This document shows, one piece after another, positions 3,755-49,643 of a stretch of 60,975 nt of DNA; positions within the stretch are counted from its first letter, which is position 1; each line of letters starts with the position of its first letter. Both the position numbers and the translations under genes were made by a program. The DNA comes from a virus. The stretch is from positions 1-60,975 of IMG/VR virus record IMGVR_UViG_3300019886_000001. One strand, given 5' to 3'. The notes beneath the pieces are model-generated. The model was not told where the DNA came from, ran no database searches, and saw nothing but the letters and a program-made list of their open reading frames with translations.

Positions 3755-3944
3755 TTTCTTGTGCTTTAAATGGTTTTAGCCTGGGTGCCGGTGAATTCTT
3801 TATGATGGCTGATTTTTTCAGTTCCGGCAAAAATTCCAAGTGGTAAATTATGGTTTGAAAATTATAATTCGGTTCAGGCTTTATTTTTAAGATGCGTTCA
3901 AAAGCTTTTATATCATTCATTATTAGATTGGCCATGCCGGGCAA
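3744..3944 (-). CDS. Small hypothetical protein
   Basis: 66 aa with a basic, Pro-rich end. It overlaps both neighbours (11 bases with the glycosylase, 32 bases with the 3913 gene). A start at Met4 or Met9 would shorten the upstream overlap. No family recognised. Confidence 0.55.
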   Translation of the reverse strand: MPGMANLIMNDIKAFERILKIKPEPNYNFQTIIYHLEFLPELKKSAIIKNSPAPRLKPFKAQENDS

Positions 3945-4326
3945 TGTTCTTTAAGTCCTTTTGCTGAAGATCGGTAACATCGGGTTTTAATTTTCTCTGC
4001 AATTCATCAAAACAACCTTCAAGAAGAAGTTTCATTTCATCCACGCCAATCACCTGTTCATTAATATCAGCATTATCCAATACTTCAGCAACAAACTTCA
4101 GCAATATACCAAACTGCATTTCATAAGGTAAATCATGAAATTTAATTGTTTCAGGCATCTTTAAATTGAACCTTTTATTATAACCATAAATTGAAGGTGA
4201 AATAAAAATCTTTTCCCAATCAACTGCTTTTTTATATGCATCAATCCATGCATGGAATTTCACCATTGCACCTGGATACTTTTTAGTAATCAGGTTAAAG
4301 AAGTTTTCTTTGTTAAGGTTTTCCAT
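3913..4326 (-). CDS. Hypothetical helical protein
   Basis: 137 aa, predicted alpha-helical, unrecognised. The middle carries aromatic and acidic residues (YEMQFGILLKFVAEVLDN) and the tail is Lys/Gln-rich. It follows the 4330-4656 gene by 3 bases, in the same run. Confidence 0.65.
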   Translation of the reverse strand: MENLNKENFFNLITKKYPGAMVKFHAWIDAYKKAVDWEKIFISPSIYGYNKRFNLKMPETIKFHDLPYEMQFGILLKFVAEVLDNADINEQVIGVDEMKLLLEGCFDELQRKLKPDVTDLQQKDLKNIARHGQSNNE

Positions 4327-4329
4327 GAT

Positions 4330-4656
4330 CTATTTTGTTAAAAGTGCTTTAGCAGAATCAGCATAGGCATTGTATAGGCTATCATCAACCTTTGCGCCTT
4401 TTATCCAAATCTGTATCCTGTCTTTCACCTCGGGACCTGAATAATTCACTGCACTATCAGCATATAATGCTGATTGATGTTTATACGCTTTGGCAAGCAA
4501 GTAAAGCTGCATGCTTTTAGCAAAATTTTTATCTTCCTTTCGCCTTCTATCTAAATCAATTTTTGGTGTGAATATCCATGCAATGAATACCAGGAACACA
4601 ATTCCAATTATGGTTAGGCATACATAAGAAACAATTTTTGGGAAGTTAATTTTCAT
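4330..4656 (-). CDS. Small membrane-anchored protein
   Basis: 108 aa. One N-terminal transmembrane helix (about residues 9-30) is followed by a charged helical domain with conserved-looking Tyr and Asp-Ser pairs. There is no lipobox. It overlaps the 4646-4843 gene by 11 bases. Confidence 0.6.
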   Translation of the reverse strand: MKINFPKIVSYVCLTIIGIVFLVFIAWIFTPKIDLDRRRKEDKNFAKSMQLYLLAKAYKHQSALYADSAVNYSGPEVKDRIQIWIKGAKVDDSLYNAYADSAKALLTK

Positions 4657-4843
4657 GATTTTGGTTTTTATGGTTAATGACTATTATTTTGCCTTCAAAG
4701 TAGTATTTGGATTTGGTTCTGTCTTTCCTTCTGTAAAAAACTGTTTGATCATCCAACCTGGCTGAAAAGGATACAACCCGGCTTCTTTTATTCCAACCCA
4801 CAATAATCTTGGCACCTGGGTTATGATACTTAAATAAGAGCAT
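4646..4843 (-). CDS. Small basic hypothetical protein
   Basis: 65 aa, strongly basic and beta-rich (KRSRVVSFSARL, then FYRRKDRTKSKYYFEG). It could bind nucleic acid, but no family is recognised. Confidence 0.55.
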   Translation of the reverse strand: MLLFKYHNPGAKIIVGWNKRSRVVSFSARLDDQTVFYRRKDRTKSKYYFEGKIIVINHKNQNHEN

Positions 4844-4886
4844 GTATAAAAAGCAGTTGCCTTTTTTAAGTACGGGTTTTAATCAT

Positions 4887-5387
4887 TTAAATCTTGGCTT
4901 TGTAATCAGCATCATTCATTCTTAAAAGCATTTTTGAAGATGCATTATGAAGCAATTCAAAAGGGGTTCTTTTAAACTTATGTGCTATATGCAAAAGAAC
5001 AAATAAAAGATCAGAAGCTTCACCCATAAGATCATTTGCAACCTGATCATTAATTGCCCATTGGCCTGTATCCTTACCTTCATATTGCTTTTTGAATGCA
5101 CCAAAAGCTTCAACAAGTTCCTGATATTCTTCTTCAAGTTTATCAAAACGGGCATCAATTGTTTTTTGCCCAATACAAGTATCTGCCATGTTCATAGCTA
5201 TCTTATAAAGGGCTTCAAACGATTTATCAAATTTAACCATTGAATCCTTCAGGCAATCTTCATAACCTGCCTGATAACTGTTTTTTGCTCTCAATGCATA
5301 ACCTTCCCTGGTAACAGAAAAGAAATCCATAATGCTTGATGAATGTTTACGTGCTTTATAAGCAATACTTTGTTGATTATCGTTCAT
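4887..5387 (-). CDS. MazG-like nucleotide pyrophosphohydrolase
   Basis: 166 aa from the chosen start, all-alpha. The metal-binding pattern of the all-alpha NTP pyrophosphatases is present: EEEYQE (about 85-90) and EASDLLF (about 123-129). Such enzymes hydrolyse (d)NTPs to monophosphates and are common in phages for clearing odd nucleotides or lowering alarmones. I chose the Met at 5387, which leaves an 11-base overlap with the upstream gene. An in-frame ATG at 5450 would add 21 residues but overlap that gene by 74 bases. The specific substrate cannot be told. Confidence 0.7.
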   Translation of the reverse strand: MNDNQQSIAYKARKHSSSIMDFFSVTREGYALRAKNSYQAGYEDCLKDSMVKFDKSFEALYKIAMNMADTCIGQKTIDARFDKLEEEYQELVEAFGAFKKQYEGKDTGQWAINDQVANDLMGEASDLLFVLLHIAHKFKRTPFELLHNASSKMLLRMNDADYKAKI

Positions 5388-7855: not shown

Positions 7856-8575
7856 TTAATCAAATAAAGTATAAACACCTTTTTCCACCCTTAAAAAGTA
7901 TTTCTGAAGCTTTTGGCGAACCTTTGCCTGGTAATGGTTATTGTGCTTCAGCTTATCGGGTGCAATGCGTTCAACCATTTCATAAATATCATTCAGGCTT
8001 CCTTTGCCGTTCAGTTTGATCAGGGATATGGTAACAACACTTTTCCAATCCGGGCTTTGGGTAATGGTGATCACCGGCATAGCGTTCACCAAAACATGCT
8101 TCCCTTCAATTCCACTTTCGGCCAATGCATCAACATTGTTTTCACCGTATGCAATCAGAACAGAAGGTGCACCACCATTGAAATGCCCGGCAATGCCTTT
8201 GACAGTATAGAAAGTTATCCTGCCTTTAATAAATAGCATGCTCATACAGAACGGGAACACATGCTGCTGAAAGGCAACCGTTTCAGTACGGGCAAAGGTT
8301 AATGCAATACCGTTGGCATGCTGTGCAATTTTCTTCAGCCATTTGATCATTTCGCTTCCATACGGTGGGTTCATCCACACCCGGCCATTCCAGGGCAACA
8401 GAAGCCCGTTATCATTTACAGTGTAATGTTCTTTGGCTGTATTCCAGGGACGGTTGATAGGGCTGCAAGGGTCCAAATCGAATTCACCCAATGAACGAAT
8501 TATGGAAGGTGGTGTTAACCATTCATCAGTTCGCATTACTGAACTTTCATGATGCTTTGTTGCTTTCTTTGGCAT
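7856..8575 (-). CDS. Phage Dam-type adenine N6 methyltransferase with winged-helix-like tail
   Basis: 239 aa. The N-terminal domain matches the phage Dam family: DEWLTPPSI near residue 17, FDLDPCSP near 32, and the catalytic motif NPPY at 69-72, followed by FARTET. The enzyme would transfer a methyl group from SAM to adenine N6. After about residue 175 there is an extra region (NDIYEMVERIAPDK, then VRQKLQKYFLRV) that looks like a winged-helix domain and may contact DNA. It is one of two adenine methyltransferases within 2 kb. Confidence 0.85.
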   Translation of the reverse strand: MPKKATKHHESSVMRTDEWLTPPSIIRSLGEFDLDPCSPINRPWNTAKEHYTVNDNGLLLPWNGRVWMNPPYGSEMIKWLKKIAQHANGIALTFARTETVAFQQHVFPFCMSMLFIKGRITFYTVKGIAGHFNGGAPSVLIAYGENNVDALAESGIEGKHVLVNAMPVITITQSPDWKSVVTISLIKLNGKGSLNDIYEMVERIAPDKLKHNNHYQAKVRQKLQKYFLRVEKGVYTLFD

Positions 8576-8576
8576 A

Positions 8577-8732
8577 TTAAAATAATTCTAATTGTTTATT
8601 AACTGGCTGAAGCTTTTGGTTTTTTATGGTTTTCTTAACTGATTGCCTGATAACTTCCTGAAGTGTTTTAAGATTATGCTTTTTTGCATATTCGTATTCT
8701 TCCCTTTTGATACGAAAAAATTCTTCAAGCAT
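8577..8732 (-). CDS. 51-aa charged helical protein
   Basis: A short gene, MLEEFFRIKREEYEYAKK..., strongly charged and helical, ending in LELF. The start overlaps the upstream methyltransferase stop as TAATG and the stop is one base short of the next ATG. It fills the only gap between the two methyltransferase genes. It may be a DNA-binding or accessory peptide, but function is unknown. Confidence 0.6.
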   Translation of the reverse strand: MLEEFFRIKREEYEYAKKHNLKTLQEVIRQSVKKTIKNQKLQPVNKQLELF

Positions 8733-9553
8733 TAAAATAACTTGTGTTGATATTTACAATTCGGGCTTATCCAAAGTGTTTCAATTCTTTTGATTGAACC
8801 CTTACCACCTGAAGCAACAGATGTTTTAGTTGCTTTCTGCCAACCTGTAAGCATATCATTATACAGGGTGTTATCATAACCGCTTAATACCACCATCCCT
8901 TCTAAAAGTGCCAATGACTTCAATAGCTTCACGTGCTGATCAGTATTCATTTCAAACTTGTAAATATTGGTGCTTTCCCCGGCATACCTGGTTTCAAGCT
9001 TATAGGGTGGATCAAGGTAATGCAGGGTTTTGGGCGTATCATGCTGTTTTATGACTTCAATAGCTTCACGGTTTTCAATCACCACACCCTTCATCCGTTC
9101 AATTATTGCTTCCAGGGATCTTGGGAAATTATTCCAATCATGTGCAGGTGTGGTTCCGGCCCGGTTGCTGTTGGCCCTGAATCCTGTTTTTTGTGTTGAT
9201 TGTATGCCTGAAGCAAAACCCATGAAAGAACGTATCAATGTTTTCCGGGCCAATTCAAAAGGATCACAATCAGCTATTTCATAGGATTGTTTGTATTCGG
9301 TGCTTGAATATGGTGTTAACTCCAAGAATCTGATTAGTTCCGGACCTGATTCACGTACAACCCTGAACAGATTCACCACTTCATCATCCAAATCATTGTA
9401 CACTTCACAATAGCTTCTTTTCTTTTGAAGAAGCACTGAAGCTGCACCGCCAAAAGCTTCAGTGTAAATACGGTGATCGGGGAAATGGCTGATAATCCAG
9501 GGTGCAAGCATCCACTTACCACCATGATAACGTAATATTGGCCGTGTTACCAT
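8732..9553 (-). CDS. DNA adenine methyltransferase, D12 class
   Basis: 273 aa. Motif X-like YHGGKWMLAP (9-18), the SAM-binding TEAFGGAAS (31-39) and the catalytic LDPPYK (DPPY 181-184) are in the order of the D12/DpnM family, whose members often modify GATC. The target site here cannot be told from sequence alone. It stands next to a nuclease (9555) and a second adenine methyltransferase, so it may protect phage DNA from host restriction. Confidence 0.9.
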   Translation of the reverse strand: MVTRPILRYHGGKWMLAPWIISHFPDHRIYTEAFGGAASVLLQKKRSYCEVYNDLDDEVVNLFRVVRESGPELIRFLELTPYSSTEYKQSYEIADCDPFELARKTLIRSFMGFASGIQSTQKTGFRANSNRAGTTPAHDWNNFPRSLEAIIERMKGVVIENREAIEVIKQHDTPKTLHYLDPPYKLETRYAGESTNIYKFEMNTDQHVKLLKSLALLEGMVVLSGYDNTLYNDMLTGWQKATKTSVASGGKGSIKRIETLWISPNCKYQHKLF

Positions 9554-10065: not shown

Positions 10066-10917
10066 TTAAATGTGACAATCACAAGGTTTAAAAATCTTAT
10101 CTTCAGAAACACCCAATCGTTTTAATGCCCGGCCAAACTTTATTTTATTCTGATTTTCATTTGGTTTAACCCCAAGTGCTTTAATTTGGCAATATAAAGG
10201 CATCAGTTCACGTAATGTTATGGCAGTCTTAACACCCTTAACGGTTATGGTATGAATAGTATAATCAACTTCATCTTCCATCAATATCGCCTTTCTGTAT
10301 GTTTCAATATCTGTACAATAAACTACATACCAATGAAGCAACCCTGCTTTTAAGCAGCCTATGCAATTAGCATGTTCCCATATTTCATAAGTTAATGGTG
10401 GTGTGATACCAACCTGAAGTGTTGAAGTGTATTTATTATCGGGCCAATTAAAATTTGGATAGGCTGTTACAAAACCCTTTGCAGCCCAAAATGATGAACG
10501 CCTTACAACCCTTTTCTTTTCTTTTTTATTAAAACCATAATATATTATGCAATTATGATCTGCATGATTATTTTCAAGATATTTTATAAAGGGTTTGGTT
10601 TTAAGCCTGGATGTGCAAATGTGATCACCTTTTGGTGTAGTCATTTGTCCTTCACTGATACATATATCGAATTGATCAGGAATTAATTCATCATCCAAAA
10701 TATCTTTAAAGTTTGCATAAGTTATTGGTAAACCTAAAAAATCTGCAACCTCTTTCTTAAACCTTTTAATGTCTGCAACCTCTTTCTTATTGTTGATATT
10801 ATGGTTCACCAAAATCATATTTTCAGTTCCATATTTGGCAGCAACATTCAATGCTGTAACCGCTGATTCATGCCCACCTGAAAAGCAAAGTATATGCTTC
10901 GTATTTTCGTTTATCAT
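10066..10917 (-). CDS. PAPS-reductase-like PP-loop protein
   Basis: 283 aa. The PP-loop CFSGGHESA (11-19) matches the SGGxxS signature of the adenine nucleotide alpha-hydrolase / PAPS reductase superfamily. A C-x2-C pair in NCIGCLKAGLLHWY lies about two thirds along. Related proteins reduce phosphoadenosine phosphosulfate or, as in DndC, insert sulphur into DNA. No other Dnd genes are present. It sits 4 bases from the ATPase/methyltransferase chimera and in a DNA-modification cluster, so a DNA-linked role is possible but unproven. Confidence 0.75.
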   Translation of the reverse strand: MINENTKHILCFSGGHESAVTALNVAAKYGTENMILVNHNINNKKEVADIKRFKKEVADFLGLPITYANFKDILDDELIPDQFDICISEGQMTTPKGDHICTSRLKTKPFIKYLENNHADHNCIIYYGFNKKEKKRVVRRSSFWAAKGFVTAYPNFNWPDNKYTSTLQVGITPPLTYEIWEHANCIGCLKAGLLHWYVVYCTDIETYRKAILMEDEVDYTIHTITVKGVKTAITLRELMPLYCQIKALGVKPNENQNKIKFGRALKRLGVSEDKIFKPCDCHI

Positions 10918-13422: not shown

Positions 13423-13716
13423 TTAAATTAAGTTGTACCATTCCATTTCTTTCACAATGGTTGCCCGGAATGGAAAGGCAGTTTGTGGTATTTGACTAAT
13501 AATATCTATTAACACATTTGAGCCGGTAAATATCACCCGTTTTGCACCATCGACTTCAATTTGCAGATGCAAGCATTTTGCATCCCGTTTACCGTATTTA
13601 CTATCCTCAACCCTATAATCATAAACAGCTATTTGCTTATCAAGTACTTCATTTATAGCTATTTTTTCACCACTTAAATTTTTTGATTTGATTCCTAATT
13701 CTTTAAAGTCTTTCAT
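13423..13716 (-). CDS. Hypothetical beta-rich phage protein downstream of the DGR reverse transcriptase
   Basis: 97 aa. The pattern KIAINEVLDKQIAVYDYRV, then KCLHLQIEVDGAKRV and VIFTGSNVL, suggests an OB-like or other small beta fold. From memory, similar ~100-aa proteins occur in Bacteroidota and Firmicutes phages, function unknown. Its start lies inside the end of the reverse transcriptase gene (14 bases), so the two are translationally linked. It is not a recognisable Avd. Confidence 0.65.
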   Translation of the reverse strand: MKDFKELGIKSKNLSGEKIAINEVLDKQIAVYDYRVEDSKYGKRDAKCLHLQIEVDGAKRVIFTGSNVLIDIISQIPQTAFPFRATIVKEMEWYNLI

Positions 13717-14662
13717 TTAATAATTTTTTCTGTAGGTGGATACTGTTACAATGCTTGGCCCAACCCTGATAAGATGCTATGGATGGCTTATTTTTACGCC
13801 TGGCAATCATACGGGCAAAAGCCTTCTTAATTGATTTTCGTAATAATATGTGAGTGTGATAGAAACGGTATCCTACAAAATCTATGCTTCTTGCTTCAAC
13901 CGGGAACACTTGATAATTGTGTTTGACTTCCAGGCTTAGATTCAGTGTTAAATATTCACTTATATCTGCAAGTAATTGATGTAAATAAGGTTTATTATCG
14001 GATAGAAAAACTAAATCATCGGCGTACCTGAAATAGTATTTAACCTTCTTGGTTTCTTTAATCCAGTGATCAAAGTATGTTAAATAAAAATTAGCAAAGT
14101 ATTGTGATAAGTAATTTCCAATTGGAACGCCTTCAGCACTATCAATAATTTCATCCAACAGGTGTAAAAGATCATTATCCTTTAATTTTCTTCTTAGCAG
14201 TTGTTTCAGAATTGGGTGCTTGATGCTTGGGTAAAACTTTTTTATATCAAGTTTAAGGCAATAGGTTGTGCCTGGTATATCTCTTAAAGCTTTCTGTAAT
14301 GCTTCTTTGGCTGCATGGATGCCTTTTCCTTTGATGCAACTGTATGTATCTGCTGTGAACACTGAAACAAAGATTGGTTCAAGTTTATTCATTATAGCAT
14401 GATGCATTATTCGATCAGGAAAGTAAGGCAATCTGTAAACCAACCGTTCTTTTTTCTCAAATATTTTGAATGTTGAATATTCAGAAGTTTTGTATTGGTT
14501 ATTGGCTAATAGATTGTGAAGGTTTAGGATATTATTTTCAGCATTACGATCATGAAGTATAACACCATATTGGGTTCTTTTGCCTTTCCTGGCAATACTA
14601 TCTGCCAACTTCAGGTTTTCGATACTAATAATATCCTGATATAAATTGTTCAATCTTTTCAT
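13703..14662 (-). CDS. Reverse transcriptase of a diversity-generating retroelement
   Basis: 319 aa. The palm motifs are in order: LDIKKFYPSI (138-147, catalytic Asp139), VPIGNYLSQYFAN (179-191) and FRYADDLVFL (211-220, YADD). The SQ in motif 4, in place of the SP usual in other bacterial RTs, is a recognised mark of DGR enzymes. It would copy the template RNA at 14777-14844 with errors at adenines and replace the variable repeats at 14984-15051 and 15382-15449. There is no maturase, endonuclease or retron msr/msd-like structure nearby. It is the last DGR part in the order targets, template, RT. Confidence 0.95.
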   Translation of the reverse strand: MKRLNNLYQDIISIENLKLADSIARKGKRTQYGVILHDRNAENNILNLHNLLANNQYKTSEYSTFKIFEKKERLVYRLPYFPDRIMHHAIMNKLEPIFVSVFTADTYSCIKGKGIHAAKEALQKALRDIPGTTYCLKLDIKKFYPSIKHPILKQLLRRKLKDNDLLHLLDEIIDSAEGVPIGNYLSQYFANFYLTYFDHWIKETKKVKYYFRYADDLVFLSDNKPYLHQLLADISEYLTLNLSLEVKHNYQVFPVEARSIDFVGYRFYHTHILLRKSIKKAFARMIARRKNKPSIASYQGWAKHCNSIHLQKKLLNERL

Positions 14663-14776
14663 TTTTAGCCTTATGGTTATAGGGATTTTTCGCTTTATCA
14701 GCTACTAAAACCCTTTTATTTATTGTCTTTTTTTGCCAAGTGGCAAGGTCTATACTGCTATTAAGATCATACCATT

Positions 14777-14844
14777 GGTGCGCACTGACATTCGTATTCG
14801 TATTCCAATTATCGTAATTCGAGTTCGAGAAGCTGGGACCCGAA
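14777..14844 (-). ncRNA. DGR template repeat (TR)
   Basis: 68 bp on the minus strand, starting TTCGGGTCCCAGC and ending GTGCGCACC. Aligned without gaps to the two variable repeats, it differs only at its own adenines: 13 of 19 in VR1, 11 of 19 in VR2, and none of the other 49 bases. Twelve of the adenines sit in six AAY codons, which become NNY and never give a stop. The mature RNA probably extends into the flanks (14663-14881), but its ends cannot be seen. An open frame (14625-14858) passes through it; I do not call it a gene. Confidence 0.95.
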
Positions 14845-14881
14845 GAACCCGTCAACACATACAGTATACAACCCTTTGTTT

Positions 14882-15286
14882 TTATTCTTCTGAAATTTTC
14901 GGTTCGATCAGCAAAACATCTTTATGCAAATCCATGAAGTTCATTCCAAAAAAATCAGAATCTTCTTCAGTCAAAAATTCGAGGCGCGCACCGACATCCG
15001 TACGCGTACACCAACAATCGTAAGTCGAGAGCGAGAAGCCGGGACCCGAAGTTTTATCTGTTAAATCCCATACAGGAAAATAACCCCACTGTTTACCAGG
15101 TATCCTTACTTTTCCCTCATTTATGGCCTCTGCTATGATTAGCCTTTTTATTGATGAATGGGTATATTTTTGAAGCCATTCGGGAAGCTTTGAAACTTCC
15201 GGCAAAATAGCAATGGGATCATACCCACGTAAAACACATGCTTCTTCAAAAGCCTTGTTTGAATCTGTTGTTGTAAGATTTTTCAT
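14882..15286 (-). CDS. DGR-diversified target protein 1
   Basis: 134 aa. A helical N-terminal part (to about residue 60) is followed by WGYFPVWDL, then the variable region SGPGFSLSTYDCWCTRTDVG at about 79-100, then GARLEF and a 30-residue tail. It is a paralogue of target 2: both have W-x-P or W-x-F segments, SGPGFS, YD-x-W, VGARL and a similar tail. The fold is probably C-type-lectin-like as in other DGR targets, which is inference. It has no signal peptide and no tail-fibre domain, so it should act in the cytoplasm or be a separate ligand binder. Two Cys were created by mutagenesis. Confidence 0.9.
   Translation of the reverse strand: MKNLTTTDSNKAFEEACVLRGYDPIAILPEVSKLPEWLQKYTHSSIKRLIIAEAINEGKVRIPGKQWGYFPVWDLTDKTSGPGFSLSTYDCWCTRTDVGARLEFLTEEDSDFFGMNFMDLHKDVLLIEPKISEE
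14984..15051 (-). repeat. DGR variable repeat VR1
   Basis: 68 bp, gap-free match to the TR. 13 differences, all at TR adenines: ten inside the six AAY codons (now Leu, Thr, Cys, Cys, Arg, Asp) and three A-to-G changes at TR positions 11, 59 and 66. The reading frame matches VR2. Confidence 0.95.
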
Positions 15287-15295
15287 TTGTTTTGT

Positions 15296-15745
15296 TTATT
15301 TTATAATTACCATAAAGGGTTTGTATATTTCGGGGAAAGTGTTACCGGCATAGATGGCTAATTCAGATGATTTAAAAGAAAGGCGCGCACCGACACACGT
15401 AAACGTATTCCAATGATCGTAAGCCGAGTGCGAGAAGCCGGGACCCGAATCTCTATTAAAGTAAGGTGTGTACCATGTTTTTGATGGATCAAGTTCTTCA
15501 CCTTCCTTCAGTTCGTTCAATGCCCTGGAAATTAATTTCATGCGTTTATAGGCAGCTTCATCTTCTGTATCATTTTCAATCCTTCTGATAAAGGCTTCCA
15601 TTGTTACGTTCTGATCTTCCAAAACATCTTCAAAGGTTTTGATGCGTTCAGTAACTTTTACAGAATACTTTTTGATCTTCTGAATCTGTTCAGGCGTTAG
15701 GGTGATCTCAATATCATCCCCGTTGATGTTGATAATTGTTTTCAT
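15296..15745 (-). CDS. DGR-diversified target protein 2
   Basis: 149 aa. A charged helical N-terminus (to about 85) leads to TWYTPYFNRD, the variable region SGPGFSHSAYDHWNTFTCVG (about 100-119), then ARLSFKSSELAIYAGNTF and a short hydrophobic tail. From memory, this RL-x-F-KS ... YAG-x-x-F pattern is common in small unexplained proteins of Bacteroidota gut phages and prophages. It lies 9 bases upstream of target 1 and shares its C-terminal half, so one is probably a duplicate of the other. Ligand unknown. Confidence 0.9.
   Translation of the reverse strand: MKTIININGDDIEITLTPEQIQKIKKYSVKVTERIKTFEDVLEDQNVTMEAFIRRIENDTEDEAAYKRMKLISRALNELKEGEELDPSKTWYTPYFNRDSGPGFSHSAYDHWNTFTCVGARLSFKSSELAIYAGNTFPEIYKPFMVIIK
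15382..15449 (-). repeat. DGR variable repeat VR2
   Basis: 68 bp, gap-free match to the TR. 11 differences, all at TR adenines. The six AAY codons now encode His, Ala, His, Asn (unchanged), Phe and Cys. The same three outer A-to-G changes as in VR1 are present. Confidence 0.95.
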
Positions 15746-27805: not shown

Positions 27806-29608
27806 TTATGGATTAGTTAATGCAAAACCATTTGAATTAAGTGTTGCAGGTCCAGTTAGGGTGTATGTTCCTTTAACAGATACGTTGCCTAACAGTTTCT
27901 TGGCACCTGAACCTTGAAGTGTTAAGTTTTTGTAACCCGGAGTTGGATCACCCGGAACCTTAATATCCTGGTTGCCTGCAAGCCCGTAAATCCATGTGTT
28001 TGTTGCCTGGTTGCAATACAGTTTACCAAGTGTTGCCATTGGTGCAGTTGCATTTTGATAATTTAAGAGGCCCCGATGATCTAAAATAGAATTGGCATTG
28101 TTACCATCAATTGTGCCTGTTAAAGTAAGTACATTAGTAAGCAACCCGGCAAACGTAACCGTTATAGCACCTGATATTATTATGTTATTCACTATGGTAA
28201 ACCCTGTCCAAATTACATTTTGGTTGTTTGTTGAAAACGTGATATTTCCAGTGCCAAAATTAAGAAGTGTGGCATTTATAGCATTTGCCGTTAAACCGCC
28301 TCTGAATTCAATTGTTGGATTGCCCCCCGAAAAGTCAGATATACCACCATTGTCAAAGTTTACTAATCCAACAAATATCAATGCCCCGGCACCTGTTTTG
28401 GAAATTTTACCATTATTACCACTTAATGTTGTTCCTGTAACAGTGAGATTAAATGTACTGCATTCAAGTATACATCCTGTTCCACCGCTATTATTGTTTA
28501 AAGTTCCGGCAATAGTTGTGTTTCCTGCCAAAGTTTTTGTTCCAACGCCAAATAATGTAATGCTTTGAAAAGATGTATATGGTAAAGTATAGCTTCCTGT
28601 TATTAAAAATTCCAATGTGCTTGAAGCACCATGCATGTAGTTATAAATGCCTGTACTCATAATGTTACCCATTACGGTTGTACTGTTGTACCTGATTATG
28701 CCATCATTATTCAATGTTGATAAAGAAGATAACCCTGTAATGGTGGTGGTGAAATTCATCCTTCCATTATTTGTTAAAGTTATCCCGGCTGCAATAGTTG
28801 TTGTACCTGTAAATGATATGTATGAATTACTGCTGAATGCCTGGTTATTGGTGGTAAATTTAATATTACCAGTGCCCATAACGATAGATGTTGAATTATC
28901 AGTTGCCCAACCGTTTTGAAATTCAATATCACCATTACCTGAAAAGTTAAATGTTGCACCATTATTGGTGGTTTGAGGACCTTTAAAAAGGGTATATCCT
29001 GTTGAACCTAATCTTCTTATTGTGCTTGCAGAAACGCCGTTGTTACTTACAATAGCATTACCATTGACAGTAAAATCAAATGTGCTTAAATCAAGTGTGC
29101 CGTTTGATGAATTGAATGCATTGCCTATTGTAGTATTGGCAGCTAAGAAGCGAAGCCCTGAACCTGATATGGTAAGGTTGTAATAATTTACAGGTGCAAG
29201 AAGCTGATCACCATTCCATGCATAAGTTACCCTGGAAACACCTGCAATAAAATTCGGGAAAACATTATAATAGCTATTCAGAAGAAGTGAAACATCCGAA
29301 CCTGAAAAATCTAATGTTCCCGTTGCCTGTAATGTTCCATTGATGGTTAATGTCCGGGTTGTCATTCCATCAACCTTTAGTGTACCCCCAACAATTAGTT
29401 GGTTTAGAGCAACGGATGTATCAAGTGTGACAACATGATTGATATACACGTTGTCACCTGGTTGTGGTGAAGTATGGATGTGCTTATCCAGGCCGGGTGA
29501 AATCCAAATATTCGGATCACTCCAATTGCCATCATTAAGTGTGTACCAAGTATTGAATCTTCTTGTTACGAATACATTAAAATGAACCTGGTTAATCGGA
29601 TATTCCAT
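27806..29608 (-). CDS. Beta-helix tail spike-like protein
   Basis: 600 aa. An N-terminal segment (NTWYTLNDGNWSDPNIW) leads to long repeats of short Thr/Asn/Gly-rich strands such as TLTINGTLQATGTLDFSG and TTIAGTLNNNSGGTG, typical of a right-handed beta-helix or G8-like stack. There is no signal peptide. It follows the fibre genes in the late run, so a virion spike with receptor or glycan binding is likely. No catalytic residues could be assigned. Confidence 0.7.
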   Translation of the reverse strand: MEYPINQVHFNVFVTRRFNTWYTLNDGNWSDPNIWISPGLDKHIHTSPQPGDNVYINHVVTLDTSVALNQLIVGGTLKVDGMTTRTLTINGTLQATGTLDFSGSDVSLLLNSYYNVFPNFIAGVSRVTYAWNGDQLLAPVNYYNLTISGSGLRFLAANTTIGNAFNSSNGTLDLSTFDFTVNGNAIVSNNGVSASTIRRLGSTGYTLFKGPQTTNNGATFNFSGNGDIEFQNGWATDNSTSIVMGTGNIKFTTNNQAFSSNSYISFTGTTTIAAGITLTNNGRMNFTTTITGLSSLSTLNNDGIIRYNSTTVMGNIMSTGIYNYMHGASSTLEFLITGSYTLPYTSFQSITLFGVGTKTLAGNTTIAGTLNNNSGGTGCILECSTFNLTVTGTTLSGNNGKISKTGAGALIFVGLVNFDNGGISDFSGGNPTIEFRGGLTANAINATLLNFGTGNITFSTNNQNVIWTGFTIVNNIIISGAITVTFAGLLTNVLTLTGTIDGNNANSILDHRGLLNYQNATAPMATLGKLYCNQATNTWIYGLAGNQDIKVPGDPTPGYKNLTLQGSGAKKLLGNVSVKGTYTLTGPATLNSNGFALTNP

Positions 29609-34210: not shown

Positions 34211-34552
34211 TTATGGAAGTTTATCAAAAAGTACTTTTACGTGGGGATAGTTTTTAATGTAAGCTGCTGCATTTTCATCAGTAAGGTTATCATTATTGAA
34301 AAGCTTATCCCCTTGTACAAATTGGTGGTTGCCTGGCTTCAGGATATATTTCTTTTCTGAATAGGAAGCATTCCCGGCTTCTATTTCCAATTTGCGAAGT
34401 ACTTTCCTTAGATCGGTGATTGCCCTGGCTTCACACTTGGGGCAATCTTCAATATCCTTTGAGTAATAAAGGGAATATAATTCCTTTAATTTGGTCTTAT
34501 CCCGCTTTGAAGGGTCCAACCAATCTTCCAAAAACTGTTTCAGTTCTTCCAT
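34211..34552 (-). CDS. Hypothetical protein before the portal
   Basis: 113 aa with a charged helical first part, a C-x2-C pair (CPKCEARAI) and an acidic end. Unrecognised. The terminator at 34571-34600 lies just before its start. Confidence 0.6.
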   Translation of the reverse strand: MEELKQFLEDWLDPSKRDKTKLKELYSLYYSKDIEDCPKCEARAITDLRKVLRKLEIEAGNASYSEKKYILKPGNHQFVQGDKLFNNDNLTDENAAAYIKNYPHVKVLFDKLP

Positions 34553-34570
34553 GATTTTTTAGTTTAAAAT

Positions 34571-34600
34571 AAAAAAGGGTGGGATTTTATTTCCCACCCC
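34571..34600 (-). terminator. Intrinsic terminator after the 34.6-35.2 kb gene
   Basis: GGGTGGGA (34577-34584) pairs with TCCCACCC (34592-34599), then TTTTTT on the minus strand. It may limit transcription past the capsid genes and adjust the amount of portal made. Confidence 0.85.
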
Positions 34601-34626
34601 TAAATTAAGTTTAATTTTCTGAAGCT

Positions 34627-35211
34627 TTATGCAGCCGGTATACAAAGTGCTTCCAATGCTGCCAAAGTGAGTGCGTATGTGCCCGGTGATCCTATGGAAA
34701 CACAACGTGGTAACATTGGCTCCCTTAGTTTTGGCCGGTTGGTTAACTTCATGTTATACCCACCACCAAAGTTATCATCAGATGCATTACGTTCACTTCC
34801 ATCATCCATTAAGCCGTTCACACAACCAAATAGTTCAAAGATGGAATCACCGTCACGGTAATTATTAACAGCTATGGCCTGAAGGTTGGCATTACCCATT
34901 GCCTGAATTTGAGTTTTTATATCACTGGATATACCTGCAATGTTAAAATCAATTTCTTCAGTATAACGGGAACCAACGCTTGTACGAACGCTTTTTGAAA
35001 TAGTATTGAAGCTGTTATTGGTGCCCAAATACTTATACATTAACGATGTACCCACACGGGTAATGGCTGTAATCAACAATGGATTGCCTGAATCGAAAGT
35101 GAATGTGAAATCACCCATGTTGAACAGGTAAAGTACATCATCAACGCCTTGTGCAATAGGATCATTGGCACAAATATCAAACCCATCGGATATTTTATCA
35201 CATAATGGCAT
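34627..35211 (-). CDS. Abundant virion protein candidate (tail tube-like)
   Basis: 194 aa. Beta-rich with short strands (GDFTFTFDSGNPLLITAITR), a Gly-rich loop (DDNFGGGYNM) and a hydrophobic end. It lies between the major capsid gene and a strong terminator, where an abundant product is expected. Tail tube or cement protein are both possible. Unproven. Confidence 0.55.
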   Translation of the reverse strand: MPLCDKISDGFDICANDPIAQGVDDVLYLFNMGDFTFTFDSGNPLLITAITRVGTSLMYKYLGTNNSFNTISKSVRTSVGSRYTEEIDFNIAGISSDIKTQIQAMGNANLQAIAVNNYRDGDSIFELFGCVNGLMDDGSERNASDDNFGGGYNMKLTNRPKLREPMLPRCVSIGSPGTYALTLAALEALCIPAA

Positions 35212-35232
35212 GGTTTGTTTCTCCTTTACTGA

Positions 35233-36456
35233 TTAAAATGATAAATAAAATAATTCGTTTCCGAACTTAAAGTTCACGGCTGCTTTCATACGAGCCTTCA
35301 TACGAACCACATCATCATTGGTATACGGTTTAAGGTAAACAGTTGATAAGGACGATTCATCACCTAATAAATCCACACCCAAGAATAGGTTGGAAGCACG
35401 GGCACCCAACAGGGTATTTGCCTGCCAATGGTTCATGATCTGTAACGGCATGCCCAAATAATCCATTTTCTTAACATCGGTGAACGCATTCAGTACATTC
35501 ACTGCTTTTTCAGCTTGTGCCTGTGCGTATGCGTATGCTACGTGGAAAGGGATCATCAGGTTAAAATCATCCTGGGTACGATCAGCAGGATCAAGTTGAG
35601 CATAAACCCATTTCAACACCTGAAGCACGTTGCTTGCATTGATGAAGGTTAAGGTTGCAGCAGTTGCAGCCGAACCGCCAAAAGTTGCAGCTAAACGGGT
35701 GTTAACATCGTTATAGTTACGGATTAACTTGATATGGGTAGCGTCAATAACCTGGATGAAATAAGAGGTTGGAACAACTGCATTCAATAATGCAATACTT
35801 CCACCGCCTGTTGTTTCAGTCAAGGCACCTGCTGTAACCTGAACGGTAACAACATCACCATCCTGATATTTGGTTGAATCAGCCACAAGAACAATACCTG
35901 TTGTTGCGATAGCAGTAACCACTTCAGAAGTGTTTGCTTTACCTGCCAGGTGTACTTTAAAAGGACTTGTTGCAGCAGCTATTGAAGGCAACAGACCTGG
36001 GAAAGCAGCAGTAAATGTTGCTTCCTTAGTTGCACCTTTACCCAACCAATACAAACGGTCGTTTGCAATTTGGATTTTGGTTAAATAACGATTAACCATG
36101 TGATCAGAAAGATCAACAACACCTTCGTAATCTGCAAATGAACCTGGTTTAATGGATTGGCTTTCCCATGATTGGATAAGCTTATCCCACTGTTCCTGTT
36201 TCATGAACTCATACACAACCGGGTCAAGGTAGCTTTCATTCTGCAATGCAGTAGTACCCTGATCATTGAACACCCCGGAAGGGTCCTGAAATTTCACTTC
36301 ATCATCAGCATCTAATAGAATCTTACGCGCCTTTACATCAGTAAGAACGGTAATTAAACCCCTGGTTACGGTATCAGCCTCTAATAGAGTTGAAGCCATA
36401 AAACCGGCTAATGCTGCACCGGCATAGGTGTTGTTTGAAAAAGTAAATTGTGCCAT
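35233..36456 (-). CDS. Major capsid protein
   Basis: 407 aa. It lies straight after the protease gene and has an N-terminal segment (MAQFTFSNNTYAGAALAGFM), a long beta/alpha middle and the end MKAAVNFKFGNELFYLSF. Size, place and composition fit a HK97-fold capsid protein. About residues 170-270 may hold an inserted beta domain (VTAIATTGIVLVADSTKYQD). Confidence 0.75.
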   Translation of the reverse strand: MAQFTFSNNTYAGAALAGFMASTLLEADTVTRGLITVLTDVKARKILLDADDEVKFQDPSGVFNDQGTTALQNESYLDPVVYEFMKQEQWDKLIQSWESQSIKPGSFADYEGVVDLSDHMVNRYLTKIQIANDRLYWLGKGATKEATFTAAFPGLLPSIAAATSPFKVHLAGKANTSEVVTAIATTGIVLVADSTKYQDGDVVTVQVTAGALTETTGGGSIALLNAVVPTSYFIQVIDATHIKLIRNYNDVNTRLAATFGGSAATAATLTFINASNVLQVLKWVYAQLDPADRTQDDFNLMIPFHVAYAYAQAQAEKAVNVLNAFTDVKKMDYLGMPLQIMNHWQANTLLGARASNLFLGVDLLGDESSLSTVYLKPYTNDDVVRMKARMKAAVNFKFGNELFYLSF

Positions 36457-38137: not shown

Positions 38138-41100
38138 TTATAGGTTTACCCGGTTTACTGTTTTAGCTTTAATAGATTGCTGATTATTAATATCCTTCAC
38201 ATCCACAACAACAGGCGGGAAGTTATTGATCAGGGAAAATGCAATGCTGTTGGCCAAGTTTTGTGTGCCTTCTTGTGGTTGGGCATAATAGCGGTTTGAA
38301 TTACCACCATCAGTTACTATACCACCAATAGCATATCCCCGGCCTGGATTCCGGGTGCTGAAGTCGCGCCCCCCGTATCTTACATTGATAGCACTTACCA
38401 GGTTACGCGCCCATGGATCTTTCATTGCTTCAGAAACAACCACCGCTTCACCTGATCTTAGTTGTGCATTCACGTTATCATGCCTGCTGTAACCAGGAAG
38501 CAAAGCACCCCGGCCATCCGATTTGTGGAAACCACCAGTTGCGTATGCAGGTGGTTTTTGTGAAGCGATCACACCAATTTCTGCTGCACCTGTTGCTGCT
38601 GCCAATGCCATCAGTGGAATGATAGGTGAAGCCTTCAGGATTGACATTGCTGTTTCAATAGCAGCTTTTGCCAATGATAATTTTTGATCTGCTTTAAATT
38701 CCTTCACCTTTTCCTGACCTTCCAACTTCCTGTATTTATCATTGATGGAAATCTTTTGTGCTGAAGTAAGGCTTGAATTGGCAAGTTCCCTGTCTTTATC
38801 TTTTCCAAGCTGCACTTCACGGGTTTGTGCCTGGGATTTAAGGCTATTGGAAAATATGCTGAAAGCTGCATTGGTTGCTACCTGGCTAAACTGAAGAATC
38901 ATATCCATTTTAGCATGTTCATTCTGTTGGGTCAAATCAAAATCAGCAGCTAAATATGCTTTTTCCATTTCCAGTTTGGCAGCATCAGTTAAACCCTTTT
39001 GGGAAACTTCAGCATTATATTCATCCAATAACTGCTGATGTTTAGCGGATTGTTCATCAGCATTGAAAGGGTTATTCTTACCACCGGCAATTCCCTTCTT
39101 TGCCTGGGCATCGAATATGGCCGTCTTATCCTGGAAGGCAAGTTGCTGATCATAGGCTTGCTTATTGATTTGATCAATCTTCCTGTTGGTTTCTTTGGTT
39201 AACTCAACCCGTTTATCAGAATTATTTCCCAACAAAGCCAACTGTTCATTCAGGGTTGTTTTTAATGCCTGAATTTCGTTATCAGAATATTTGGTTTTAG
39301 TGGATGTAAGTTCTTCATTTAGCTTCCTGATGTTATCCTGTAACTGCTGATTTTCAATATCAAGCTGTAATGTTCTTTGGGCTTTATCATTATTGGCAGC
39401 AGCAATTTCCCTTTTCTGCACATCTTCAATACCGGCAATGTGTATTGCTTTTAATTCCAGGGCACCTTTTTGTGCTTCCTGCACCATCACCTTGTTGTGC
39501 TCAACCAATAACTGTTCAGTAGCAATGTATTGTTCAGCCTGCAATTGTGCGATAGTGCCCAACCCTGTTGATACGCCTTTGCTTGCTGCTGCACGTACCT
39601 TCCCTGATTTGGAAGTGTTGGCAAGCTGCCTTTGCTTTTCAACAAACTGTTCCTGCTTGAAAATTAACTGCCTGTAATGTTCATTAGTGGTGGAAAGTTC
39701 TTTACCGAAAGCTTCTTGTTGGAATGCTAATGTACGGCTGATGCTTGCAACCTTTTCACTGGCTGATTGGGCTGTTTCTTCTTTGATCTTCTGAATCAAG
39801 GCAAGTTCTTTTTCTGCTGCCTGTTCAGCCTTCATATCAATGGCATCCAAACGGTTTTGCGCCCGTTCTTTTACAGTAACAAATTCCCGTTCAGCTTGGG
39901 TTTGTTTCAATTGTGCATTTGCTATTGCCTGAATATCAGTACCGGCACCTTCTTTATTCCGCAAACCTTTTGTTTTATCCAGGTATGCAGCAGTTTCAAT
40001 ACCGGCTTTAAGCATTCGGGTGGTGCCGGTGACTTCATCTTTGATCAGCATGCCGGTTTTCATTATGGCATCCCGTTCTTCTTCAGAAAATTTACGGGCA
40101 TTTGTAGCTTGTAACACTACCAATTCATACTGTTTATCAGCAAGTTCTTTATTGCCCTTGTACTTATCAGTGGCTATTTTCTGTATTTCATCAAAGTATT
40201 GCTTTTCTTGTGCCGGTGTATTGCGCCTGTTACGCATCTTCAACTGAAGTTCGGCAATCTGTTCATCCGCTTTGGCATCATCAACAAGATCCTGAACAAT
40301 AGCCCGGTTCAAATCCTGCATTGCTGCTGTTAATTTCTTAGCTTCAGAATACGCCTTACTCATATCATCAGCCAATTGACCGAACCCAACACCTTCGCCC
40401 AAGTCGGACATAAAAGCACTGAAGGCTGCACCCACACCTGACATTTGTTGTTTCAGGGCTTCAGCATTAGGTGTTAACTTAGCGAACCATCCGACTATTG
40501 CAACAATACCCACCACAATAGCAGCAATGGCAGCGATCATGCCGATCATACCGGCTGATAATCCGGCAATACCTTCTTCAGCAGCAGGTGCAGCAGCAGC
40601 AATTGATTGAGTACTTTCAGCAGCTTCAGCACCTTTCACTGAAAACTGTTCAACACCTTTGGCAGCATCCCCAAACTTTGAAGGCATGTAACCCATTGTT
40701 TGGTTTAACTTCGCTGAAGCATCATTGCTTTTGTTCATGGCATTTGGCAGGAAGCCAAATCCTTTTACAACGGTGGTGATGGCCGTGTTGAACCTTTGGA
40801 AGCCTGGTATGGCATCCCCTAATGAACTAAATGCATTCTTAAATGCTTCTTCATAGTTACCTACATTCCTGTAAGTTTGGCCAATCTGCTTTTCCTGGGT
40901 TTTAAGCTTGGTGGTTAAATCATCAATGGTTTTGCCAAGTGCAAGGGTGCTTTGTGCTGTTTTGCCTTCTTCCAGGCTTAGTTTAGCATATTGGGCTGTT
41001 AATACCGAAAGCAACGCCCGGTTTTGCTGAAGGGAATTATTTTCAGCATTTGTTGCTTTGGTGATGTTATCAATCTGCTTGTTGGCATCCTTTATTTCGG

Positions 41101-41290
41101 CTTTAGTAAGCCTGATTTGGGATTGAAGGCCAACATATTCTGCTGTATTCTGCTTATTGGCAGATGAAAGCTTGAATTGCTTTGCAAGAAGTTCATCCAG
41201 GGTGCTATTCAACCCGGTAACATCTGTTTTTAATTGAGTTTGTTTAAGTTTAACATCAATTAAAATCTTTTTGGTTATATCATCTGCCAT
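38138..41290 (-). CDS. Tail tape-measure protein
   Basis: 1050 aa, the longest gene here. It has long coiled-coil stretches (about 30-140 and 450-850), a Gly/Ala/Ile-rich hydrophobic segment (GMIGMIAAIAAIVVGIVAIV, about 245-270) and a second near 895. The end (PPAYATGGFHKSDGRGALLP ... AQLRSGEAVVVSE) is typical of tape-measure proteins. At the usual ~0.15 nm per residue the tail would be about 155-160 nm long (inference). Confidence 0.9.
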   Translation of the reverse strand: MADDITKKILIDVKLKQTQLKTDVTGLNSTLDELLAKQFKLSSANKQNTAEYVGLQSQIRLTKAEIKDANKQIDNITKATNAENNSLQQNRALLSVLTAQYAKLSLEEGKTAQSTLALGKTIDDLTTKLKTQEKQIGQTYRNVGNYEEAFKNAFSSLGDAIPGFQRFNTAITTVVKGFGFLPNAMNKSNDASAKLNQTMGYMPSKFGDAAKGVEQFSVKGAEAAESTQSIAAAAPAAEEGIAGLSAGMIGMIAAIAAIVVGIVAIVGWFAKLTPNAEALKQQMSGVGAAFSAFMSDLGEGVGFGQLADDMSKAYSEAKKLTAAMQDLNRAIVQDLVDDAKADEQIAELQLKMRNRRNTPAQEKQYFDEIQKIATDKYKGNKELADKQYELVVLQATNARKFSEEERDAIMKTGMLIKDEVTGTTRMLKAGIETAAYLDKTKGLRNKEGAGTDIQAIANAQLKQTQAEREFVTVKERAQNRLDAIDMKAEQAAEKELALIQKIKEETAQSASEKVASISRTLAFQQEAFGKELSTTNEHYRQLIFKQEQFVEKQRQLANTSKSGKVRAAASKGVSTGLGTIAQLQAEQYIATEQLLVEHNKVMVQEAQKGALELKAIHIAGIEDVQKREIAAANNDKAQRTLQLDIENQQLQDNIRKLNEELTSTKTKYSDNEIQALKTTLNEQLALLGNNSDKRVELTKETNRKIDQINKQAYDQQLAFQDKTAIFDAQAKKGIAGGKNNPFNADEQSAKHQQLLDEYNAEVSQKGLTDAAKLEMEKAYLAADFDLTQQNEHAKMDMILQFSQVATNAAFSIFSNSLKSQAQTREVQLGKDKDRELANSSLTSAQKISINDKYRKLEGQEKVKEFKADQKLSLAKAAIETAMSILKASPIIPLMALAAATGAAEIGVIASQKPPAYATGGFHKSDGRGALLPGYSRHDNVNAQLRSGEAVVVSEAMKDPWARNLVSAINVRYGGRDFSTRNPGRGYAIGGIVTDGGNSNRYYAQPQEGTQNLANSIAFSLINNFPPVVVDVKDINNQQSIKAKTVNRVNL

Positions 41291-47528: not shown

Positions 47529-49643
47529 TTATTGTGTTTGAATGTTCTTTGATGGCATATTGAAGGTAAGTGCAAATTCATATTGCCCCAAGTTAGTTTC
47601 ATATTCAGCAAATGATGCAGTATTAACAATAACCGTTTGCCATTTCAAAGGGTTTTGGCCGGTAAGTATCTGCACTTTCGGGCTGAACTTCATGGATTGG
47701 CAACCCTTAATATCATCAACAGACATATCCACTGCATGCACCTGAACCTTTTCTGAAGCTGATTTGCTGATCACATCTTCAATGGATTGTTCGTTTTCCC
47801 AATCATCAACATACCTGGTTATAAGTTGGGCATTCTGCACATCCAGGTTGTGTTCCTGATTGAAGATGAACCTGTAATAATTCCATGATCCTGTTAAGCC
47901 TATCCACCGCAAATACACGCTGTTATAATCACAATTTTTATCTATCCTGACTATCTGATCAGAAACCACCTGTTGTGGATTGCCCCCCGAATTATCATAG
48001 AAGATGCCTATCTTGATAAAGTAAACATCATCAGCAAAATCATTATCTATCAATAGCCGGTTCAGGCCAACGTGTTCAACAATTGGGGTATTGAAAAATG
48101 ACTGTTCACCAATAATGAACTTGCTGCCATCTTCATTAAGTATGTAACTGCTATCTTCATTTAACAGGAATGTTGTGATGGATGATCCACCCCCGATAAC
48201 TTCACGGTTAATATCCAATAAGGTTATTTTTGAATACAACTGCCTGCCTGCAACCTTTTCACTATAAATAAATGAAAGATCAAAAGGGAATGTTAAGCTG
48301 TATACAGGTTCTTTGAATTCAGTAATCCATTTTGCAGATCGATTTGTAAAAGGAACGTATTCAATTAGATTACCCCCCCACTTATCACCAAGCTGCCTGG
48401 CTGTAAACACTACATAAAAAGGATCTTCCAACGGTATGAAGTCGCTTGTGTGCCCGGTGTTCCCATCAGCATCAATGGTTCCATCTTCCCAATGTTCAGC
48501 GTATGCGATCTGATAAGATGCAGAAAGGTTGGAATCCCGAAAGTTTATTTCAGTGTAATCACTATCATCTTTTATCTGAAGCAATGATTGCATGAAGTTT
48601 TTGAAATCAGCCTTAACCAACCCGGTTGCATCTGCACTGTTCTTTGATATTAAGGTTTTACCAGGTTGCCCGGTGATCGGATCATTGAATGTTATTTGAG
48701 TATAGATTTTATAGTACGGCTTCATGGTATCTGAATTCATGAACCCGGTGGTGGTGGTACTCCAAACCACATCACATGAAACACTGGATATGGTTGCAGC
48801 CAATACTTTGAACACCCCCGTATAAACATCAGTATTGATGTACACGTAAATTGCAATACCATTAACCCCGGCTGCTTTTTGTGTTGCAATGGCATTAACC
48901 AAAATTGTTAAATCACCATTGATGTTGAAAGTAACCCCGTGTATAGTGCGCAATGGCTGCACATCAGAATATAGTGATGCACTGGCAACTTCATAATCCT
49001 TTCGCTGATATTGAAACACAATAGGGTTGAAGGCAGCATTCCACCGGGAACGGCTCCCACCTATGTTTACGGATGGATCTTTTACAAGAAGGTTGGCAGT
49101 TGTTTGAATAGTTACCTGGCCATTAACAGCACAACCAATCGGGTTGGCATCCCTTAACCATACAGTTTTAACACCACCTGATAAGCCGGTGAATGTTTTT
49201 GAAGATTGGAAGGTGATGTTATCCAGGGAATATTCAATTGGCCCATAACTGGATGTGGCATTTACTGTAAGCACTGCATCATTGGCACCAATAAATGATT
49301 CATTGGTATTTTCAAATGATCTTAATACTAAGTCACACTGATTAACAGGTGGTGCCGGATCGGGTGCTTCTGATTGTGATGTGATCCTGAAGGATGTATT
49401 TACACCATGTGAGGGGTTTGTATCCCGAATAACACCTGTCCAAATTCCAGTCCATTGACCAGGTATTGTTGTTGTACCCGGTGTATCCACACCATTCAAG
49501 GTGATCACATAAGTAACAACAATATTATCACCGTTTACAGGATTGCCCGTTGCAGGATCAATAACAGAAATCCTTACTTGGCCAACAGTTTGTGTGCCTG
49601 ATTGGAAAGTATTTGAATAGTCAATAATTGCAAGCTTTGCCAT
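47529..49643 (-). CDS. Large virion protein, beta-rich
   Basis: 704 aa. The start (AIIDYSNTFQSGTQTVGQVR, ISVIDPATGNPVNGDNIVV) looks Ig-like, then a long beta-rich chain with repeated motifs such as LLNEDSSYILNEDGSKFIIG. It shares one base with the 49643-50104 gene. It may be a tail sheath-like, tube-tip or baseplate protein. The family is not recognised. Confidence 0.6.
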   Translation of the reverse strand: MAKLAIIDYSNTFQSGTQTVGQVRISVIDPATGNPVNGDNIVVTYVITLNGVDTPGTTTIPGQWTGIWTGVIRDTNPSHGVNTSFRITSQSEAPDPAPPVNQCDLVLRSFENTNESFIGANDAVLTVNATSSYGPIEYSLDNITFQSSKTFTGLSGGVKTVWLRDANPIGCAVNGQVTIQTTANLLVKDPSVNIGGSRSRWNAAFNPIVFQYQRKDYEVASASLYSDVQPLRTIHGVTFNINGDLTILVNAIATQKAAGVNGIAIYVYINTDVYTGVFKVLAATISSVSCDVVWSTTTTGFMNSDTMKPYYKIYTQITFNDPITGQPGKTLISKNSADATGLVKADFKNFMQSLLQIKDDSDYTEINFRDSNLSASYQIAYAEHWEDGTIDADGNTGHTSDFIPLEDPFYVVFTARQLGDKWGGNLIEYVPFTNRSAKWITEFKEPVYSLTFPFDLSFIYSEKVAGRQLYSKITLLDINREVIGGGSSITTFLLNEDSSYILNEDGSKFIIGEQSFFNTPIVEHVGLNRLLIDNDFADDVYFIKIGIFYDNSGGNPQQVVSDQIVRIDKNCDYNSVYLRWIGLTGSWNYYRFIFNQEHNLDVQNAQLITRYVDDWENEQSIEDVISKSASEKVQVHAVDMSVDDIKGCQSMKFSPKVQILTGQNPLKWQTVIVNTASFAEYETNLGQYEFALTFNMPSKNIQTQ

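Follow-up and report, generated by a model that had tools for sequence, protein, structure and literature searches.

A diversity-generating retroelement with one template, two small targets and a candidate accessory gene in a viral genome

In the diversity-generating retroelement (DGR) of the Bordetella phage BPP-1, a template repeat (TR) lies upstream of the gene for an error-prone reverse transcriptase (RT), an RNA in the spacer between them recruits the complex of RT and the accessory protein Avd (PMC12875486), and variation in the variable repeat (VR), at the end of a single tail protein, is restricted to template adenines. The tentaclin DGRs nd4 and nd12 serve two target genes from one TR, the targets being receptor-binding C-lectin proteins and the cassettes including Avd (PMC10743442). 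The DGR of the Bacteroides phage p00 (hankyphage), whose activity has been demonstrated by experiment (PMC12135933), diversifies a large C-lectin-bearing tail protein and has a spacer of the Rfam RT-3 type; an ORF of this phage was proposed to be Avd solely on the basis of its size and isoelectric point (PMC6199706). According to PMC7290462, roughly one DGR in four lacks an accessory gene.

The cassette described here lies in a window of 60,975 nucleotides, the entire viral record IMGVR_UViG_3300019886_000001. It resembles the BPP-1 element in its type of RT, the placement of TR, the spacer RNA and the adenine-restricted variation, but it lacks bAvd, encoding instead a putatively OB-like protein that overlaps the RT stop, and where BPP-1 has a single tail protein ending in its VR, it has two small targets whose VR is internal, with about 30 residues after it. 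As in nd4 and nd12, one TR serves two target genes. The closest annotated phage RTs are those of crAss-like (lineage 3) phages, with 60% identity to that of cr55_1, and the cr55_1 spacer matches our RNA model, although cr55_1 and LMMB have large tail targets and no recognisable accessory gene. In the Bacteroides phages BI-TP1 and LoVEphage the same accessory family adjoins the RT and a remote target (record positions 62208-62792) is homologous to the window targets (phrog_11581), but their second target, beside the RT, is an Mtd-like tail protein, whereas both window targets are small and adjacent. The hankyphage RT contains the accessory family, phrog_19665, as a fused domain (residues 327-433), whereas in the window it is a separate gene. 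We hold with considerable confidence that a DGR of working type with an accessory partner, carried by a tailed phage of Bacteroidota, best explains the locus as a whole.

One template and two variable repeats

The cassette is encoded on the minus strand in the order target gene 2 with VR2, target gene 1 with VR1, TR and RT, followed by the accessory gene. The TR (14777-14844) spans 68 bp and contains 19 adenines, and both VR1 (14983-15050) and VR2 (15382-15449) align with it over the full 68 bp without gaps. VR1 differs from the TR at 13 positions and VR2 at 11, every one of them a TR adenine, and neither differs at any of the 49 other positions (hypergeometric p = 9e-10 for VR1 and 5e-8 for VR2 for such a placement by chance). 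The window cassette is a genuine DGR with one template and two variable repeats, as an initial annotation had proposed. The TR and VR2 coordinates given there were correct; VR1 had been placed at 14984-15051, a register in which no alignment exists, and its true span starts one base earlier. No further VR was found beyond these two in the whole 60,975-base record.

The RT gene (13703-14662, minus strand) encodes 319 residues that matched the profile of phrog_1423 (E = 7e-117), and the DGR-type SQ motif and YADD box previously ascribed to it were both found, the former (GxxxSQ) as GVPIGNYLSQ at residues 178-187 and the latter at residues 213-216. Its assignment as a defence RT (Drt/retron) was rejected, all such matches falling below the cut-off. 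An ORF that spans the TR (14625-14858) was likewise rejected as a gene, a comparable reading frame being present in just 8 of the 80 relatives described below. Elsewhere in the window, the structural half contains large ORFs at 27806-29608, 38138-41290 and 47529-49643 (600, 1050 and 704 aa) with no PHROG match.

A search of viral contigs with the RT yielded 80 relatives at 69-75% identity, and a search of genomes yielded 80 loci, mostly in Bacteroidota (Flavobacterium, Pedobacter, Chryseobacterium, Niastella and others). The arrangement of the repeats recurred in 75 of the 80 viral loci: the TR lay some 180 bp ahead of the RT, and VRs stood at about -375 and -780 from the RT on contigs long enough to include them; in the remaining five, fewer than 350 bases were present upstream of the RT. 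Some elements had three or four VRs. In L124, L128, L033, L060 and L118 the extra VRs lay several kb from the RT, with up to four VRs per TR.

The target proteins and their genomic setting

Target gene 1 (14882-15286, minus strand) encodes 134 residues and contains VR1, and target gene 2 (15296-15745, minus strand) encodes 149 residues, contains VR2 and belongs to phrog_11581, a family of unknown function. Homologues of target gene 1 were found in 72 and of target gene 2 in 71 of the 80 relatives, and in nearly all of them both targets measured 120-165 aa, with some 30 conserved residues after the VR; the usual position of the VR in a DGR target is C-terminal (PMC8144416). Neither target matched a Pfam family. 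In the structural model the N-terminal part was helical with confidence and the VR part was of low confidence and unresolved, and assignment of a fold by structure search was given up when no PDB match emerged.

The targets may be small virion decoration or adhesin subunits, with the cassette switching host range as in BPP-1. This proposal concerns target function and is compatible with our overall explanation; we regard it as possible but on balance doubtful. Tail proteins make up the majority of viral DGR targets (PMC8144416), and in BI-TP1 a single TR serves both the Mtd-like tail protein and the homologue of the window targets, which is encoded far from the RT, matches the TR over 113 bp with 15 mismatches at adenines and none elsewhere, and has a tail-protein family match at its VR. 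Against it, the genes around the cassette in the window and its relatives encode DNA methyltransferases, helicases and proteins of replication and recombination, and no tail family appeared among the 25 commonest neighbour families. A strongly hydrophobic stretch was present in just 13 of 271 members of the target family, and in none of these was it N-terminal. Moreover, the phage L062 carries a separate Avd-type DGR whose 751-aa target, with a terminal VR, looks more like a tail adhesin. Gene position and this two-DGR phage lead us to favour non-virion targets.

Some further features of these regions may be recorded. Downstream of the DGR, at 10066-10917 and 7856-9553, the window encodes a PAPS-reductase-like protein (phrog_424) and apparent DNA methylases, and the remote target of BI-TP1 is flanked by neighbours that resemble them. 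In both L083 (7869-8453) and BI-TP1 (L184, PQ571265) the remote target is annotated as a hypothetical protein and matches, with 15 mismatches over 113 bp that are all at adenines, a TR that lies beside the RT at the opposite extremity of the record. In Bacuni F1 (L187, 7549-8223) a DUF1566 fimbrial-tip-like protein is encoded between DNA polymerase and methyltransferase genes; it is presumably the distant VR1 target of PMC8143477 and another early-region target.

A candidate accessory gene linked to the RT

When all ORFs around the RT were clustered across the 80 relatives, just four coding elements were widely conserved: the two targets, the RT and an ORF of 97-103 aa. This last element, at 13423-13716 on the minus strand of the window, encodes 97 residues, overlaps the RT stop by 14 bp and matched phrog_19665, a family of unknown function (E = 1.4e-7). 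The cassette had previously been delimited at 13703-15745; its identification as a DGR stands, but the conserved gene extends it to 13423. That earlier reading is incomplete, having missed both this gene and the structured spacer RNA and not having asked what the targets are.

The ORF adjoined the RT in 79 of the 80 relatives, with its first 14 nt typically lying within the 3' end of the RT gene, and was retained beside the RT where the targets are of other types. Its position is otherwise variable. Profile comparison, and phrog_19665 itself, placed a homologue between target and TR in Bacteroidales phages, the slot that Avd occupies in BPP-1; in others it is a second gene downstream of the RT, and in L107, L168, L179, L183 and hankyphage it forms the C-terminal domain of the RT itself, although L107 is a metagenome-assembled genome in which an indel error could have produced the fusion. 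The C-terminus of the hankyphage RT (L185, 3023-4327) matched phrog_19665 at E = 3e-18. Mapped onto a tree of 60 RTs, the various arrangements required 12 changes, with at least two origins of the RT fusion, hankyphage included. The association extended beyond the 80 relatives. The archaeal virus vir525 has the gene, and among 395 genomes of one class it occurred in six, in all six within or beside a DGR RT. A phage database search returned 29 records; 23 matches fell within genes annotated as RTs or in records without annotation, and the other six were in LoVEphage-type records, of which BI-TP1, the one inspected, has the gene beside its RT. A single-sequence scan of a collection gave one match, a fused RT.

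We asked whether the protein is an Avd homologue and rejected this, as none of 45 members matched PF05635 or PF22296 and a true bAvd had no significant match to the accessory profile; nor did the accessory protein match any Pfam or NCBIfam family. No bAvd (PF22296) was found in the window record or in 18 of 19 relatives, in a search that recovered the positive control Bacuni F1. The sole exception was L062 (record G015), which has two DGR RTs, in two complete DGRs at 3859-5276 and 34348-35356. In one of them bAvd lies immediately upstream of the RT, and the other, of the window type, has the accessory gene and two small targets. Each RT within this one genome thus keeps an accessory of its own, bAvd in one case and the phrog_19665 gene in the other.

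AlphaFold2 applied to the 45 accessory sequences predicted a domain (pLDDT 87) with the order strand-strand-strand-helix-strand-strand. Foldseek matches in the PDB were weak (best E = 0.03), and several OB-fold domains appeared among the first 50; these include entries that we take to be OB folds, namely a RuvB-like insertion, a MetRS-related protein, Teb1, HIN and RPA70. Since the assignment draws on the order of secondary structure and on weak matches, we treat an OB-like fold as a lead.

The window element could also be an ordinary DGR in which the 97-aa gene is an unrelated, co-transcribed passenger and the RT works alone, as is assumed for Avd-less lineage-3 DGRs. Lineage-3 elements such as crAssphage LMMB have indeed been described without an accessory gene (PMC7290462), and DGRs with related RTs in crAss cr55_1, LMMB, Perkons and Termititenax have no recognisable member of the family, so that the accessory is not universal. 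In cr55_1 and LMMB the ORFs that follow the RT were considered as candidates and rejected as unrelated. Linkage in 79 of 80 loci, the alternative positions around the RT and the fusion to divergent RTs, including an experimentally active one, would nonetheless be unexpected of a passenger, which we therefore consider improbable. It is the repeated fusion that ties the candidate to the RT, and on these grounds of linkage we propose the 97-aa protein as a candidate for the accessory role in DGRs that lack Avd.

Boundary sites, spacer RNA and activity in relatives

We aligned 225 TR/VR pairs of relatives on a conserved Gly-x-Arg of the target. On the 3' side, TR adenines were G in the VR in 214 of 214 cases at the Gly codon and 205 of 205 at the Arg codon, as would fit an IMH/IMH* distinction between the 3' ends of VR and TR; on the 5' side, adenine sites were G in 140 of 143 and 118 of 120 cases, one of these sites being a mostly silent third position. 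At core TR adenines all four bases were found in the VRs. For VRs of the same element, agreement at changed sites was 0.81-0.96 at the ends and 0.47 at first and second codon positions of the core. We read the fixed sites as a distinction of the IMH*/IMH type rather than as products of mutagenesis. In the window, both VRs have G at TR positions 11, 59 and 66 (1-based; codons AGC, AGT and CAC). Sites of this class are always or nearly always G in relatives, so these three are not counted as mutagenised. The mutable core thus comprises 16 adenines, 10 of them changed in VR1 and 8 in VR2; the initial annotation had correctly counted 13 and 11 changes among 19 adenines, but three in each VR are fixed A-to-G boundary sites. 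The six AAY codons from which it estimated a diversity of 15^6 are present in the TR, but that figure covers AAY codons only, and single adenines in TAC, GAT and ACG codons vary among relatives as well. The four such adenines of the window are unchanged in both VRs (0 of 8). Striking at first sight, this proves no more than weakly unusual (about 1%), since retention of these codons in relatives is high (44-62%).

The spacer between TR and RT (14662-14750, minus strand) is a covarying structured RNA, as seen in an alignment of 83 sequences. The alignment supported eleven base pairs; 95.6% of the cells were paired, double changes occupied 199 cells where shuffles gave 48.6, and all slid controls collapsed. 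The spacer scored above the gathering threshold of Rfam RT-17 (RF03020), and above that of RT-18 too. The RNA model also had matches immediately ahead of the RT in DGRs from other groups, crAss cr55_1 included, which had played no part in its construction. By analogy with BPP-1, the window spacer may recruit the RT and its partner.

Comparison of closely related elements showed that the family is active in nature. Between L032 and L093 the RT, TR and 110-bp flanks are identical, and the VRs differ at 11 of 20 and 10 of 20 adenines and at none of 116 non-adenine sites. Across four non-redundant near-identical pairs, VR differences fell on 86 of 183 adenines and 1 of 471 other sites (p = 2e-54), in line with the earlier expectation that variation would be confined to sites facing TR adenines. 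Such changes beside a constant TR imply recent activity; no second isolate with the same TR or VR was found in the viral contigs, so this activity is seen in relatives of the window phage. A fossil cassette, with VRs that diverged long ago and an RT now inactive, is very improbable, for although a single genome of the window phage is known, its RT motifs and spacer RNA are intact, neither VR has a non-adenine mismatch and relatives have been active recently.

In the working DGR that we favour, an RNA that includes the TR and, as RT-17 RNA, the folded spacer would be transcribed and copied by the RT, which would misincorporate opposite adenines, and the cDNA would replace the core of VR1 or VR2. 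The residue sets of the two small paralogous targets would be reshuffled independently. The fixed TR-A/VR-G sites would bound the rewritten core and distinguish template from target ends, and the 97-aa OB-like protein, as partner of the RT, may do the job of the missing Avd by binding the RT, the spacer RNA or the cDNA.

The combination of accessory gene, spacer RNA and target type represents a variant beyond the published descriptions with which we compared it, though the accessory gene itself may have been mentioned earlier. More tentatively, and at somewhat less than even confidence, we suggest that phrog_19665 is an OB-like domain that takes the place of Avd, acting with the RT and spacer RNA of the RT-17/RT-18 type, in many Avd-less DGRs of Bacteroidota phages and in an archaeal virus; the small, probably non-virion, replication-linked targets of this cassette type would point to a use beyond recognition of the host by the tail. 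Rfam RT-17 gains a likely identity as a DGR spacer RNA. Small targets whose genes lie apart from those for tails would also broaden the range of proteins that phages are seen to diversify. Of greatest value is the proposed partner in the role left vacant by Avd, which gives many of the Avd-less DGRs in this RT group a specific candidate.
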